Origin: a virus
Strand: one strand, 5' to 3'
IMG/VR virus record: IMGVR_UViG_3300034198_002842
Span: 1 to 25,182 of that record
DNA length: 25,182 nucleotides
The notes under the pieces were generated by a model. The model worked only from the letters and a program-made list of their open reading frames with translations. It did not search any database and was not told the origin of the DNA. The position numbers were made by a program, and so were the translations under genes. Positions 725 through 8,602 of this stretch are shown here, piece after piece; the first letter of the stretch is position 1, and every line of letters starts with the position of its first letter.

Positions 725-740
725 GTGTCTTTGAAGACAC
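725..740 (-). repeat. GTGTC-N6-GACAC hairpin, copy 1
   Basis: Near-palindrome with arms GTGTC and GACAC around TTTGAA. It lies in the gap between the stop of the 761-1846 gene and the start of the next leftward gene, so in the RNA it is a 3' hairpin of the upstream gene. No U-tract follows on the minus strand, so it is not a classical terminator. Confidence 0.6.
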
Positions 741-2085: not shown

Positions 2086-2113
2086 TTAGCAGTGTCCTTG
2101 AAGACACCGCTAA
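2086..2113 (-). terminator. Intergenic stem-loop with GTGTC/GACAC core, copy 2
   Basis: An 11-bp stem (TTAGC-G/U-GTGTC against its complement, one wobble pair) with a 6-nt loop, downstream of the stop of the 60-aa gene at 2125. The inner part, 2092-2107, is the GTGTC-CTTGAA-GACAC repeat. There is no U-tract, so it may be an RNA 3'-end stabiliser or processing hairpin rather than an intrinsic terminator. Confidence 0.6.
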
Positions 2114-3263: not shown

Positions 3264-3467
3264 TTACGATTTTTTGATTGTGGTTAATAATGTTCCGCCA
3301 ACTACGATTAGTGCCATAACACATTTGGCGAACTTGTTTTCAATTGGTTTCCTCTCAATACCCTTGCTCAATCTTTGTTGATAAGGACAACCTACGTGTC
3401 TTCTGAATTGTGCTTTTGTCATTACTGAAGACAATAATAACGCTGTGATGATGATTTGCTTTTTCAT
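3264..3467 (-). CDS. Small secreted or membrane protein (67 aa)
   Basis: 67 residues with an N-terminal signal peptide (MKKQIIITALLLSSVMTKAQ, likely cut after TKA) and a second hydrophobic stretch near the end (CVMALIVVGGTLLTTI), so it may be anchored by its C-terminus. The middle is basic (RRHVGCPYQQRLSKGIERK) with two cysteines. The ATG follows AAACCTAAAACAGA, and the 3' end of a hammerhead ribozyme lies 22 bases upstream, so ribozyme cleavage would leave this gene at the 5' end of the cleaved mRNA. Function unknown. Confidence 0.6.
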   Translation of the reverse strand: MKKQIIITALLLSSVMTKAQFRRHVGCPYQQRLSKGIERKPIENKFAKCVMALIVVGGTLLTTIKKS

Positions 3468-3489
3468 TCTGTTTTAGGTTTATGTGTTA

Positions 3490-3540
3490 GCTGTTTCGTC
3501 CTTAAGGACTCATCAGTGTTGAAAATAATCAACAGACAGC
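3490..3540 (-). ncRNA. Hammerhead ribozyme, type III (HHR1)
   Basis: Read leftwards the RNA has all core elements: stem III GCTGT/ACAGC (5 bp, open end), cleavage triplet GTC, stem I TGTTGA/TCAACA with a TTATTT loop, invariant CTGATGA, stem II GTCC-TTAA-GGAC, then GAA before the A of stem III. Cleavage would fall between plus-strand positions 3535 and 3534. It lies just upstream of the leader of the 67-aa gene and 2 bases downstream of a 10-bp hairpin. All conserved core bases are present and all three helices pair fully, so I regard the call as strong although activity is not shown. Confidence 0.92.
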
Positions 3541-3542
3541 AA

Positions 3543-3566
3543 GGTAGTGTCCCTGAGGACACTACC
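3543..3566 (-). terminator. Perfect 10-bp stem-loop upstream of HHR1, repeat copy 3
   Basis: GGTAGTGTCC and its exact complement enclose a 4-nt loop (CTGA on the plus strand). The inner 3547-3562 is the GTGTC-CCTGAG-GACAC repeat. It begins 8 bases past the stop of the amidoligase gene and ends 2 bases before stem III of HHR1. After ribozyme cleavage it would sit within a few bases of the new 3' end of the amidoligase mRNA, where it could protect it. It has no U-tract. Confidence 0.7.
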
Positions 3567-3574
3567 CTCACCAT

Positions 3575-4534
3575 CTACCTAGAAACAAACTTTTTGATAT
3601 CCTCGTGGATTGCTCCTGTAAGGATAAACTTGCGGAAATGCTTTGACAAGTCAACTACATTCTGAACCTTAGCTGTATCACCATTGTACATTGATATCAA
3701 TGTCGGCATCAACTTCTTAATTAGCACATCGTGGCTACCATTAGGATTCGTTACAGCGAAATTTACCACCTCGTAGAATAACTCATAACGTCTCATCATC
3801 TGCTTAACGCTCTCAAATTTGCTCACCAATCTAAATTCAAGGACGTTACCTTTTACCAATGCCATCTGATATTTGCTATGCCATCCGTTACCATAGTTAC
3901 ACATTCCACATCTACCGCAATTGTTGACGGATACAGCACCATTGTCGACCTCATTCTTTGATATCATTCTCAGGTTATGACCGCAATATTTGTTCTTCAA
4001 TCTGTTTCTGAAGATTGCCATAATTATGCCACAATGCTTTCTTATCACCTCTCTTAACTCATCACCCGTTATTCCATCCACAGCGATTGTAATGTGACCG
4101 CCACAGGTATATTGACCATCGTACTTGTCATCACTCCTGCTGTATTTATCGTCTATAATTTTCTCAGCCTTGTGCATCATATCGTACACCTTTGTGCGCC
4201 ATAATCCTGCGGGTAACAAAGGTAAAATATGTGTCACCGCTTCGTATCCGCAGGAGCTGTCGCGCTCGAACCCACAGAATAGCTCGTATTCTTTCACAGC
4301 GCCTCTATGTAGCTCATTTTTCTCGACCTCCATACCAATTGTGTACTTGCTTTTGAATTCATTGTTCAACGCATCAAATGTGATTGCATTGCGCTGTTCA
4401 ATTGGTTTCAGGCAAGCTACATCAACTCTGAATGGCGTTTTGTTAAGCTTTAAAGGATTAGGTTTCTGATGGTAACTAGCAAGTTGACCTCTGCTTCTGT
4501 TACCTGTTTTCTTGTAGATGATTCCTTGTTGCAT
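3575..4534 (-). CDS. Amidoligase-like enzyme (glutamine-synthetase-like fold)
   Basis: A 319-residue protein. Residues 66-71 (IGMEVE) give the paired acidic metal ligands, 89-98 (FERDSSCGYE) a strongly conserved stretch, 144-150 (CGGHITI) the conserved histidine and 232-240 (LEFRLVSKF) a conserved Arg segment. This order matches the putative amidoligase family (COOH-NH2 ligases related to glutamine synthetase, ATP-dependent amide or peptide bond formation). Between them a cysteine cluster (C206, C209, C212) suggests an inserted zinc-binding loop. Family members were described beside glutamine amidotransferase and GGCT/AIG2 genes; here such a fusion is encoded at 761-1846. The gene is flanked on both sides by hammerhead ribozymes, so its mRNA could be cut out as a single-gene RNA. 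Substrate unknown; a cell-envelope or peptide target is inference. Confidence 0.78.
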   Translation of the reverse strand: MQQGIIYKKTGNRSRGQLASYHQKPNPLKLNKTPFRVDVACLKPIEQRNAITFDALNNEFKSKYTIGMEVEKNELHRGAVKEYELFCGFERDSSCGYEAVTHILPLLPAGLWRTKVYDMMHKAEKIIDDKYSRSDDKYDGQYTCGGHITIAVDGITGDELREVIRKHCGIIMAIFRNRLKNKYCGHNLRMISKNEVDNGAVSVNNCGRCGMCNYGNGWHSKYQMALVKGNVLEFRLVSKFESVKQMMRRYELFYEVVNFAVTNPNGSHDVLIKKLMPTLISMYNGDTAKVQNVVDLSKHFRKFILTGAIHEDIKKFVSR

Positions 4535-4554
4535 TGTTTTTGTTTTTAGGTTTT

Positions 4555-4604
4555 GCTGTTTCGTCCTGTTGGACTCATCAGTGAGGATTGCATCCTCAGA
4601 CAGC
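4555..4604 (-). ncRNA. Hammerhead ribozyme, type III (HHR2)
   Basis: Same architecture as HHR1 but different stem sequences: stem III GCTGT/ACAGC, triplet GTC, stem I TGAGGAT/ATCCTCA with a 3-nt loop, CTGATGA, stem II GTCC-AACA-GGAC, GAA. Predicted cleavage lies between plus-strand positions 4599 and 4598. Stem I and the stem II loop differ from HHR1 while pairing is kept, i.e. compensatory change, which supports selection on structure. It lies in the 5' leader of the amidoligase gene; the A-rich AAACCTAAAAACAAAAACA leader directly follows. Confidence 0.92.
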
Positions 4605-4624
4605 TAGTGTCCCTGAGGACACTA
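4605..4624 (-). terminator. Stem-loop abutting HHR2, repeat copy 4
   Basis: TAGTGTCC paired with GGACACTA around a 4-nt loop, directly adjacent (0 bases) to stem III of HHR2 and 5 bases after the stop of the 210-aa gene. The inner 4607-4622 is the GTGTC-CCTGAG-GACAC repeat. As for the copy beside HHR1, cleavage would leave this hairpin at the 3' end of the upstream mRNA. Confidence 0.7.
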
Positions 4625-4629
4625 TCTGA

Positions 4630-5262
4630 TTATGCGTCAGGTAGGTTTGACTGAAGAAATGCAATTGCATCCATAATTTGCTCAGCTGTATTGTTGCTGT
4701 GAATGGCGCCATCACTATCAACTCTTAACGCCACATTACCGCCCTCTCTTTTCCAAGACATTGTGAAGATTGTTTGAGTCCTTACTTCAACTTCGGCGCT
4801 CTCTGTTTCGCTCTCTTCACCTTCACCTTGTCCACCTTCTGATTCATTGTTTTCCACCGCTCTTGAAAATTTCAATAAACCATCTAGTGACCTATTAGGC
4901 TCGTTTCCCTCTCTCTCTACCTCGTCGCATTTAGCATTGAATGTGGTGATAATATCTTCGCTCAATTCACCTGCTTTTACTACCTTGTAGAAGTAGCTTT
5001 TTTGCCATCCGAATACCTTGTTTCCGAATTGCTCGTTTGTCCATCCAATTCCCTCGTTAGCCATTAGCTGTTTGCATTCCTCCGATTTGAAATAGTCGAA
5101 TGCCTTCACCACTAGCTTAGACAATTCTAGTGTTTGTGCAAACTTCTTCTTCTGTGCATTGGTGACATTGCGCTGTAACGTCCTGATAGATGATAGGCTC
5201 AAAGCTTGTTCAACTTGTGGCATTCTTAGGAATGCTGTCTCGATTGTTAGTAACTGACTCAT
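4630..5262 (-). CDS. Hypothetical protein, first gene of the leftward transcript (210 aa)
   Basis: The frame is open to an ATG at 5298, but I start at the ATG at 5260-5262 (MSQLLTIETAFLRMPQ) because it follows AAACCTAAAAACACAAACT, the leader of the neighbouring genes. The N-terminal ~120 residues look helical, with a segment (GWTNEQFGNKVFGWQKSYFY) that resembles a helix-turn-helix, as in proteins that bind DNA. A serine/glutamate/glycine-rich linker follows (about residues 135-160), then a small C-terminal alpha/beta domain ending AIAFLQSNLPDA. As first gene after a promoter with repeated sites it could be a regulator or a replication accessory factor. No family recognised. Confidence 0.7.
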   Translation of the reverse strand: MSQLLTIETAFLRMPQVEQALSLSSIRTLQRNVTNAQKKKFAQTLELSKLVVKAFDYFKSEECKQLMANEGIGWTNEQFGNKVFGWQKSYFYKVVKAGELSEDIITTFNAKCDEVEREGNEPNRSLDGLLKFSRAVENNESEGGQGEGEESETESAEVEVRTQTIFTMSWKREGGNVALRVDSDGAIHSNNTAEQIMDAIAFLQSNLPDA

Positions 5263-5342
5263 AGTTTGTGTTTTTAGGTTTAAAATGTTGATTTTCAATT
5301 AGTTATGCGATTTTCGGTGTTTGCATTACCTCAACCGCAGTT

Positions 5343-5422: not shown

Positions 5423-5809
5423 AAATTATTCAATGCACTAGTTTACGCGCTGAATGTTCACCACTGAATGTAACGACCATAGCAAAGAGCGGAGGGGATT
5501 ACCCTCTGTCTCCTGTTGCCTTGTGTCCTTGAATACACTACAGCGGGAGGGGAGCGGGAGCGCGGGAGAGGGAGCGGGAGGGAGCGCGGGAGCGGGTAAC
5601 GTCGGGCGCGGCGGTGGTGGTGGTGGTGGTGATAGGATGAGGACGGGTACCCGTCCTGCATCCGTCAGGGAAAACGCCAAAAAATCCGACGGCGCGCACC
5701 AATATGCACCCCCCACCCCTGAAGAAAAAGTCACTTTCGGTCCGGGGCTCTTCGCGTCAAACGGGGGGATAGCCCAAACACTACTAGTATCTCGTATCTA
5801 AAATTTTCT
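5423..5809. other. GC-rich noncoding island with G-tracts, (GGT)n and palindromes
   Basis: This stretch is far richer in G and C than the rest of the window. From 5545 to 5606 it has ten runs of three or more G separated by short spacers, able to form G-quadruplexes, followed by six GGT units (5613-5630). An 18-bp perfect palindrome lies at 5640-5657 and an imperfect copy of the GTGTC repeat at 5523-5538. Several frames are open simply because stop codons are rare in GC-rich DNA, and their translations are low-complexity. I see no supported gene. The position, between divergently transcribed blocks, suits an origin or a regulatory region. Confidence 0.6.
5640..5657. repeat. 18-bp perfect palindrome
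   Basis: AGGACGGG-TA-CCCGTCCT reads identically on both strands. The flanks GATG and GCATC extend the pairing with one bulged base (5636-5662). It could be a protein-binding site or a cruciform/hairpin; no U-tract follows on either strand, so it is not an intrinsic terminator. Confidence 0.6.
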
Positions 5810-6482: not shown

Positions 6483-8093
6483 ATGATAGACAACACAGGT
6501 TACTCACCAAAGGATTTACATTTCACAGAATCAGCAAGAAAGAAATTAGTTAGTGGTGTTACTAAGATGGCGAACGCTGTCAAGAGTACGCTAGGACCAT
6601 CGGGCAACACGGTGCTTATTGAATCACCGGAACACACGCACGGTATAACCGTGACTAAGGATGGTGTGACGGTAGCTAAGGCTGTTGACTTATTGGACCC
6701 TGTTGAGAACTTGGCTGTCAAGATGATGAAGGAGGCGGCTGATAAGACGGCTACTAGTGCAGGTGATGGAACGACAACTGCGATTGTTTTGACTGAGGCT
6801 TTGGTTAAGGGTGGGTTGCAGTTTATGACTGACGATGTAAATAGAACTGAGGTGTTGAGAAACTTGGTGGACATAAGTGGGATGGTAGTGGACAAGTTGA
6901 AGAAGAAGAGTAAGAAGGTTACGAATGGTATGTTGGCTGATGTGGCTACAATATCTGCGAACAATGACAGGGAGATAGGACGAATTATTGCTGAGGTTTA
7001 CAAGGACGTTGGCAAGACGGGGATAGTTACAGTTGAGAAGAGTCAGACGTCAGAGACGTATGCGGAGACCACTATGGGCTTAAAGTTTGACAGAGGATAT
7101 CTGAGTCCACTTTTCATAAACGACCAAAAGAAAGACGAGTGTGTCTTCGAGGACACTATGGTTTTAGTTGCGGATATGGAGATAGCTAACATCCTTCAGA
7201 TTGAGAATGTTTTGAAACCAATCATTACGGAGGGGAAGAAGTTATTGATAATCTCTCCTTGCAATTCAAACGTGGTGAACACTTTTGCTGCGAATGTTAT
7301 GAAGGGTAGTATTAAAGTTTGTGCGGTTCCGCCTCCAAGCTTTGGATACAAGCAACACGAGTTGATGCAAGATATTGCGGTGAGTGTTGGTGCTACGTAC
7401 TTCAGTGAGAAGACGGGTGACGATTTGAGTTTGATAAACTTTGGTGACCTAGGGCACGCTGCTAAGGTGATAGTAAGCAAGGACAAGACGGTGATAATAA
7501 AGTCGGCTGTTAAGTTAAACCAAGAGAAGATTGACGAGAGGGTTGCTCAGTTGTGGGACGGGCACGCTCAGGCTAAGAGAAAGGCTGACAAAGATTTCTT
7601 GTTGGAGAGAATAGCATCGCTAACAGGTGGGATTGGTGTGATATTCGTTGGTGGTCAGACTGACTTGGAGCAGAAGGAGCTGTATGATAGGGTTGACGAT
7701 GCGGTGTGTGCGGTTAGGTCAGCACTTGAGGAAGGGATACTTGCAGGTGCAGGTAAGGCTTTGTATGAGATGAAGTTGCCTGAGTTGGTGTTAGATACGA
7801 AGGAGAAGGGGATTGCGGCGGCTATTTTGCAGAATGCATTGTTGGCTCCACTAGTTCAGATACTTGACAATGCGGGTTTGAAGGTTGAGGAGATTTATAA
7901 GGACGGAGTTGATGAGGGAGTTGGCTACAATTTGAAGACAGGTGAGATGGGAGATTTGATTAAGATGGGTGTTATTGACCCGTTGAAGGTTACAAGGTCA
8001 GCCTTACAGAACGCTGTGTCTGTGGCAACAACAATACTTAGCACTAATGCAATCATCACAATGGCAAGAGCATATGGAACGGATAGTAAATAA
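6483..8093 (+). CDS. groEL: Chaperonin GroEL (phage-encoded)
   Basis: A 536-residue group I chaperonin, close to the usual 540-550. It has LGPSGNTVLIE at 37-47, TKDGVTVAKAVDL at 58-70 (D60 for the conserved Asp of KDG) and AGDGTTTA at 93-100 (nucleotide-binding Asp95). Near the C-terminal third, DDAVCAVRSALEEGILAGAG matches the segment with the ATPase Asp. The Gly-Gly-Met tail of bacterial GroEL is missing; it ends ARAYGTDSK. A small membrane protein and a GroES follow in the same operon. Phage GroEL proteins are known from a few large phages, where they are thought to fold virion proteins. An interior copy of the GTGTC repeat is at 7141-7156. A clear call; phage-specific client range is unknown. 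Confidence 0.97.
   Translation: MIDNTGYSPKDLHFTESARKKLVSGVTKMANAVKSTLGPSGNTVLIESPEHTHGITVTKDGVTVAKAVDLLDPVENLAVKMMKEAADKTATSAGDGTTTAIVLTEALVKGGLQFMTDDVNRTEVLRNLVDISGMVVDKLKKKSKKVTNGMLADVATISANNDREIGRIIAEVYKDVGKTGIVTVEKSQTSETYAETTMGLKFDRGYLSPLFINDQKKDECVFEDTMVLVADMEIANILQIENVLKPIITEGKKLLIISPCNSNVVNTFAANVMKGSIKVCAVPPPSFGYKQHELMQDIAVSVGATYFSEKTGDDLSLINFGDLGHAAKVIVSKDKTVIIKSAVKLNQEKIDERVAQLWDGHAQAKRKADKDFLLERIASLTGGIGVIFVGGQTDLEQKELYDRVDDAVCAVRSALEEGILAGAGKALYEMKLPELVLDTKEKGIAAAILQNALLAPLVQILDNAGLKVEEIYKDGVDEGVGYNLKTGEMGDLIKMGVIDPLKVTRSALQNAVSVATTILSTNAIITMARAYGTDSK
7141..7156 (+). repeat. GTGTC-N6-GACAC repeat inside groEL, copy 5
   Basis: GTGTC-TTCGAG-GACAC, encoding the residues CVFEDT in the groEL frame. 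The same nucleotide motif is read in other frames or lies in noncoding DNA elsewhere in the window. Confidence 0.55.
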
Positions 8094-8343
8094 ATTCACA
8101 ATAGTTAGTCTGTTTACTGCAGGCGTTTCAATCTACCTGTTTGTACTATCGTTTATGATGTACAAGGCAGAGAGAAGGGACGGTGTAATAATCAGAAGCA
8201 AGATGGCTGACATTCAGCAGAAGGCTTACAATGATTCAACACTAAGGTCTGAGTATATGTTGGCTTTAGATAGCCTGATTAGGTCTGACGTTGGTGCTGC
8301 AAATAAATTCATTTCAATACTTGAGTACGTAAACGAGAACTAA
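8074..8343 (+). CDS. Small membrane protein between groEL and groES (89 aa)
   Basis: The frame is open from an ATG at 8047, but the ATG at 8074 (MERIVNKFTIVSLFTAGVS) gives a smaller overlap with groEL (20 bases) and is preferred. One hydrophobic span (about residues 8-30, FTIVSLFTAGVSIYLFVLSF) follows a short basic head, so the remaining ~60 residues form a charged, helical domain on one side of the membrane. Its stop is one base before the groES start, so the three genes are co-transcribed. The topology would suit a spanin- or holin-related protein or a membrane tether, but I recognise no family. Confidence 0.65.
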   Translation: MERIVNKFTIVSLFTAGVSIYLFVLSFMMYKAERRDGVIIRSKMADIQQKAYNDSTLRSEYMLALDSLIRSDVGAANKFISILEYVNEN

Positions 8344-8344
8344 T

Positions 8345-8602
8345 ATGAAACCAATAGGCAAATACATTGTTGTTAAAAACATTGACGAGGAGATAAAGAC
8401 TGAGTCAGGGCTGATACTATCGGGAGACGATACTAATCAGTTGAGGTATAAGAAGGCTTGTGTTGTTGAACCGGGTACTGACGTTAGTGTTATAAGCAAG
8501 GGAGACGAGTTATACTACGACAAGGGCACGAGCTTCACTATGCTAATTAACGACATTCAGTATACAATCATTCAGGAGCGTGACGTTGTGGTTGTTATCT
8601 AG
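8345..8602 (+). CDS. groES: Co-chaperonin GroES (phage-encoded)
   Basis: 85 residues, slightly short of the usual ~95. It starts MKPIGKYIVVKNIDEEIKTE and contains the mobile-loop region (ESGLILSGDDTNQL), a VISKGDELYYDKG segment corresponding to the GD-x-V/L-Y part of GroES, and ends with IIQERDVVVVI, matching the conserved final strand. It would cap GroEL of the same operon. Its last 4 bases overlap the end of the convergent gene 8599-9039. Confidence 0.85.
   Translation: MKPIGKYIVVKNIDEEIKTESGLILSGDDTNQLRYKKACVVEPGTDVSVISKGDELYYDKGTSFTMLINDIQYTIIQERDVVVVI

Follow-up and report, generated by a model that had tools for sequence, protein, structure and literature searches.

The window, which is the whole stretch of DNA analyzed here (a 25,182-base IMG/VR virus record), contains two hammerheads, HHR1 and HHR2, which by their sequence are genuine type III hammerheads and enclose a single gene of the same strand. 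Both are preceded by a hairpin lying flush against stem III, and it appears probable that they are copies of a punctuation module, composed of hairpin and hammerhead, by which the RNA of an operon would be divided into messages with structured ends. This module was recognized by its sequence, structure, covariation, flush geometry and placement between genes. Cleavage of the two window ribozymes is expected by analogy with other members of the hammerhead family. The two hammerheads are:

3488..3542, minus strand: HHR1, type III hammerhead; RF00008 score 50.1 bits, E 1.8e-8; the MFE fold consists of hairpin and hammerhead
4553..4606, minus strand: HHR2, type III hammerhead; RF00008 score 49.5 bits, E 2.8e-8; also obtained by motif search

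The Rfam model Hammerhead_3 (RF00008), with a gathering score of 48.5 bits, matched both sites over its full length and above that score. Two leftward type III hammerheads had been proposed in an earlier note on this DNA, together with a covariance-model check of the minus strand, and the scores bear this out. No further hammerhead or other RNA family credible at E <= 5 was detected in the window with Rfam. A motif search independent of Rfam, in which all three helices were required, returned HHR1 and HHR2 as sole matches in the window and none in 2.7 Mb of shuffled sequence. Both have three helices, the segments CUGAUGA and GAAA and the GUC triplet, and in both the core of CUGANGA, GAAA and UH at the cut site is found. 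With stems I and II closed and stem III open, both belong to type III. The predicted cut sites, 3535/3534 in HHR1 and 4599/4598 in HHR2, agree with those given in the earlier note, which had also recognized the invariant segments and the retention of pairing in stem I despite different sequences (UGUUGA..UCAACA versus UGAGGAU..AUCCUCA). Positions 10.1-11.1 form a G-C pair, and the triplet is the ordinary GUC in both copies. For HHR1 plus hairpin, the predicted fold is exactly the expected one (z -4.8); for HHR2 a competing fold is given by the nearest-neighbour model. Core, three helices and open stem III are as in RF00008; the added flush hairpin lies outside that model, and the stem I loops are atypical for the clade. 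A UGWGU-like stem I loop is kept in relatives. Since it is missing from the window copies, their loop-loop contact and speed are uncertain.

The genes around the two ribozymes are all encoded on the minus strand:

3575..4534, minus strand: amidoligase-like gene, 319 aa; open reading frame with a predicted fold and 26 viral relatives
3264..3467, minus strand: 67-aa open reading frame downstream of HHR1; its start codon comes 22 nt after that ribozyme
4630..5263, minus strand: F06-family gene upstream of HHR2, encoding about 210 aa when counted from an internal ATG

As had been stated before, 3575-4534 is the only open reading frame between HHR1 and HHR2. Its start codon is located 20 nt after HHR2, and the F06 gene stops 7 nt before the HHR2 hairpin core. 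The name amidoligase had been given to the middle gene from its sequence. No Pfam or PHROG match was obtained for the product, and none of 17 members of the family matched Pfam at cut-off. Matches to NADH_4Fe-4S and HI0933 scored far below their own Pfam cut-offs and were discarded. A structure model built on 17 relatives (mean pLDDT 70, pTM 0.72) most closely resembled, among the top group of PDB folds considered, carboxylate-amine ligases of the YbdK type (Z 10.0), followed by glutamine synthetases at Z about 9. By its predicted fold, therefore, amidoligase is a fair name and a plausible assignment. A gamma-glutamyl cyclotransferase/amidotransferase gene follows downstream in the operon at 761-1846. 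Elsewhere in the window, a phage-encoded GroEL gene and a GroES-like open reading frame are found at 6483-8602, an arrangement also seen in the elemo phages. Between the divergent operons lies a GC-rich low-complexity stretch (5530-5770; GGGAGCGGGAGCGCGGGAG..., GGTGGTGGT), unlike the rest of the phage and without a match in the phage collection.

Phage hammerheads had been regarded in the earlier note as known singly, and a pair around one gene as unreported. The former is not supported and the latter is wrong. According to the main text of Perreault et al. 2011 (PMC3088659), clusters of several hammerheads on one strand flank single prophage genes, the examples being Clostridium scindens, Azorhizobium caulinodans and Agrobacterium tumefaciens ardA. 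Processing into gene-length mRNAs is proposed there for such clusters, whose cleavage was demonstrated in vitro, with one set also active in E. coli. The window pair shares their arrangement, in which single genes or short blocks lie between two or more hammerheads of the same strand, and differs in the phages and genes involved. HHR1 and HHR2 are real hammerheads, and neither their type nor their arrangement is new. The Pseudomonas phage PaP3 resembles the window phage in having a hammerhead just upstream of a gene and genes for an amidoligase and a gamma-glutamyl cyclotransferase. It differs in that one hammerhead was found, which is not beside the amidoligase gene and has a U10.1-U11.1 mismatch and a GUA triplet.

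The more unusual feature is the hairpin immediately upstream of each ribozyme, which is absent from the earlier note:

3541..3568, minus strand: HHR1 hairpin, 12 bp, AGGGUAGUGUCC-UCAG-GGACACUACCUU; core at 3547-3562
4605..4624, minus strand: HHR2 hairpin, UAGUGUCC-UCAG-GGACACUA, from sequence and folds; core at 4607-4622, which is the repeat described below

No unpaired nucleotide separates either hairpin from the first base pair of stem III, and the same zero gap was observed in 67 of 92 nonredundant hammerheads. In this set the 36 nt preceding stem III had a median folding energy of -13.8 kcal/mol; in regions lying farther upstream it was -4.3, and on the 3' side -0.5. As half of the 92 loci had been obtained by searching for the clade or its hairpin, the test was repeated with hammerheads selected solely by core pattern, reduced to 60% identity and freed of the clade hairpin sequence (n=32). 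A hairpin both flush and stable was present in 50% of these, compared with 12% of same-base shuffles and 0% and 3% of control windows. In bacterial contigs, many of them Patescibacteria (n=69), a flush and strong hairpin was found in 35% versus 5% after shuffling. Since the flush hairpins elsewhere have unrelated sequences (GGGGCUUCGGCCCC, GGAGCGGGAAACCGCUCC and others), it is the geometry that is conserved and not the sequence. The main text of Perreault et al. (PMC3088659) contains no mention of a hairpin abutting stem III, and no description of a flush hairpin beside hammerheads was found among the open-access main texts searched. We believe that the ribozyme is one half of a hairpin-ribozyme module and that the flush hairpin is a new architectural feature. 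In the Patescibacteria contigs (L296-L375 and further loci) type III hammerheads are numerous, often 2-3 within a few kb, and are accompanied by hairpins with larger loops and a downstream 'guucuuu' motif.

Several other roles of the hairpin were considered. Intrinsic terminators are not indicated, as there is no true U run and just GCUGUC and stem I follow. An interaction of the hairpin 5' strand with stem I, possible by eye in HHR2 (UCCUCA/UGAGGA), is absent in HHR1. Branch migration, in which the hairpin would zip up the 5' strand of stem III and act as a product trap, is unlikely, because pairing ends at the stem III border: extension past it amounts to 0.77 bases, with 0.64 +/- 0.09 expected by chance. 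The hairpin could also serve as a folding clamp: by keeping upstream mRNA away from the short, open stem III and stacking coaxially on that stem, it would let the hammerhead fold while transcription is still under way. The gap of 0 unpaired bases in most cases, the stop of pairing at the border, and a sequence that varies freely while the geometry is kept would all fit such a clamp. In partition-function calculations, however, pairing of stem III was not raised by the hairpin (0.14 native versus 0.17 shuffled), in a nearest-neighbour model that treats stacking crudely and does not include tertiary contacts, and the short tail expected after cleavage is also favoured by protection of 3' ends. 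We consider the clamp rather unlikely as an explanation. It predicts the same cleavage outcome and is compatible with a capping function, so that the two are not exclusive.

The center of the clade hairpin is a 16-nt core (consensus GUGUCUUYAAAGACAC) which also occurs as a free-standing repeat in this clade. Eight copies of GTGTCTTYAAAGACAC with <=2 mismatches were found in the window versus 0.08 expected, among them two at gene boundaries without a following ribozyme, obtained by motif and copy search:

2092..2107, minus strand: lone core copy at a gene boundary, not followed by a ribozyme
725..740, minus strand: lone core copy at a gene boundary, not followed by a ribozyme

Core copies are located at 725, 2092, 7141, 10734 and 21146, the core being a genome-wide repeat in relatives of this phage group too, and some lie inside coding sequence, for example groEL, or before tRNAs. 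As some boundaries carry the core without a ribozyme, the core must have some other role too. The near-palindromic core could be a DNA promoter or operator from which transcription starts just upstream, the hammerhead merely trimming 5' ends. The genome-wide repetition of the core is in accordance with this reading, as is the position of lone cores 9-29 nt before start codons, in mixed orientation relative to the genes. To distinguish a DNA element from an RNA structure, the outer stem flanking the core is indicative. Next to ribozymes (46 sequences), the frequency of pairing at the four outer positions is 87-96%; position -2 is occupied by five pair types and paired in 96%, with 47% expected. 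At 79 lone core copies, the same positions are paired in 30-46%, which is chance level, and none of 500 shuffles attained the outer-stem covariation score. An outer stem which covaries beside ribozymes and is missing from lone copies, together with hairpins of unrelated sequence occupying this position in other phages and in part of the clade sites, argues for RNA structure at the ribozyme sites and makes the DNA element improbable there. Judged by this covariation, the hairpin is selected as an RNA structure where a ribozyme comes next.

The terminase of the window phage is closest to that of MW202828 (82%), followed by those of the Flavobacterium phages elemo (45%) and Cellulophaga phages. 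In total, 26 viral contigs were found to encode relatives of the amidoligase-like protein. RF00008 matches, one to four each, were obtained in 22 of 26 related phage records, on the strand of the amidoligase gene wherever mapped. A hammerhead was detected neither in the other four nor in MW202828, the nearest named record. Scores in the relatives ranged from 16 to 48 bits, all below the gathering score of 48.5. Across 31 sequences, 94.6% of the helix cells are paired versus 36-50% in slid controls, stem I is paired in 100%, and 140 double-sided compensatory changes were counted; this pairing and these changes indicate, at the level of sequence, that the relatives' sequences are hammerheads under selection. 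The gathering score rejects every one of them despite strong covariation, and annotation pipelines will miss all. One region following a hairpin (L023:1917) is hammerhead-like with an A-A mismatch at 10.1-11.1 and a GUU triplet, and is possibly decaying. Decay into inactive relics has also to be considered for the window copies, given their atypical stem I loops and the competing fold of HHR2. It appears very improbable, since their core is intact, all helices are paired, the Rfam matches are full-length and above the gathering score, and all three helices are under selection across the clade.

A ribozyme pair around the amidoligase gene is found, among relatives, in the window and the near-duplicates L021/L022 only. 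Most other relatives have a ribozyme at the downstream boundary of this gene only. In the cultured Flavobacterium phages elemoA-F (grown on strain BAL314), one hammerhead is present (NC_055852, 19083-19139, minus strand; L294) with a CUGAAGA core, a GUA triplet and a score of 36.3 bits. The region is at least 99% identical across 68 records, and the hammerhead is absent from the feature list of the record viewed.

With respect to the genes, the modules are placed rather uniformly. In 35 of 48 cases, 18-24 nt lie between the ribozyme end and the start codon, and the stop codon precedes the hairpin core by mostly 9-19 nt; the window values are 20 and 22 nt for the former and 7 and 12 nt for the latter. 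The module fills the gap between a terminating and an initiating ribosome. In some longer ribozyme-to-start leaders (L004:10946, L009:11880, L027:10956 and 11972) a further inverted repeat (TTTAAACCGAAGGTTTAAA-like) is contained.

From these features the following course of events is proposed, which we hold to be probable. The leftward operon would be transcribed into one RNA. In each module, the hairpin would fold first and the hammerhead second, and the RNA would be cut after GUC during transcription. The upstream message would then end with the hairpin and a 6-nt tail, GCUGUC, carrying a 2',3'-cyclic phosphate, while the downstream message would begin with a 5'-OH at stem I, followed by stem II, the leader and a start codon about 20 nt past the ribozyme. 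The predicted tail after the hairpin is 5-9 nt long with a mode of 6, the length in both window copies. A short tail offers 3' exonucleases little room to bind, and 5'-end-dependent decay starts poorly from a hairpin with a 5'-OH. With a module on either side, the amidoligase message would be set free on its own, an RNA of one gene and about 1.06 kb (4598-3535) that is structured at both ends; it may be less exonuclease-prone, and its amount could be separated from that of its neighbours. In phage T7, polycistronic RNA is cut between genes by RNase III, leaving hairpins at the new 3' ends. There a host protein performs the cut, whereas self-cleavage is predicted for the window RNA; a search of 22 phage records gave no match to the RNase III family. 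Theta ribozymes of tailed gut phages are likewise self-cleaving and have been proposed to process phage transcripts, but they have an HDV-like fold and cut at tRNA 3' ends (PMC10879173).

Cuts on both sides of the amidoligase gene might also allow a host RtcB-type ligase to join the ends into a circular message. The end chemistry of the family (5'-OH and cyclic phosphate) and the flanking pair would be suitable. An RtcB family match is absent from 22 phage records, some of which are fragments, circular or spliced products were sought by Perreault et al. and, according to the main text, not obtained in their own cases (PMC3088659), and ribozyme pairs around this gene are rare in relatives, so that circularization is extremely improbable.

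Instead of being cut constitutively, boundaries could be served by slow or regulated ribozymes setting the ratio of cut to uncut message. The stem I loops of the window copies, which depart from the conserved type, would be compatible with this, as would a core variant found at certain boundaries in relatives, in which a U10.1-U11.1 mismatch is coupled to the base at the cut site. For the window copies it has little probability, considering their ordinary GUC triplet and G-C 10.1-11.1 pair, and a conserved extra sensing domain was not seen. Among 18 hammerheads with U10.1-U11.1, the cut-site base is never C (16 A and 2 U), and after thinning to 60% identity it is A in 10 of 10. Those with G-C at this position have C in 120 of 162 cases, or 67 of 90 after thinning (Fisher p 4e-10 for the coupling; 5e-6 thinned). 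The variant occurs at L005:15015, L009:13673, L011:13369, L013:14527, L017:13828 and 16609, L027:14005, L252, L371, PaP3 (L412) and others. Perreault et al. noted the U-U mismatch, with PaP3 among the active variants; its coupling to A17 was not found in the main text of that paper (PMC3088659).

A wider generalization is more tentative. The flush hairpin may possibly be general in type III hammerheads of phages and phage-like elements and constitute a two-ended capping module, a protein-free counterpart of RNase III processing, in which core variants (U10.1-U11.1 with A17) would tune the speed of cutting at individual boundaries. The reason for the genomic associations of phage self-cleaving ribozymes was called unknown in a 2023 paper (PMC10085705). 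The fixed order of stop codon, hairpin, hammerhead, leader and start codon across unrelated phages offers a concrete function that can be tested, and as the cultured phages elemoA-F carry one such ribozyme, this is feasible now. The geometry of the module also provides a handle for thousands of weak hammerheads under the Rfam cut-off, and the module itself is a ready part for gene separation in synthetic operons. For the phages, hairpin and ribozyme together suggest a compact means, requiring no protein, by which long messages could be split into protected pieces of one gene each.
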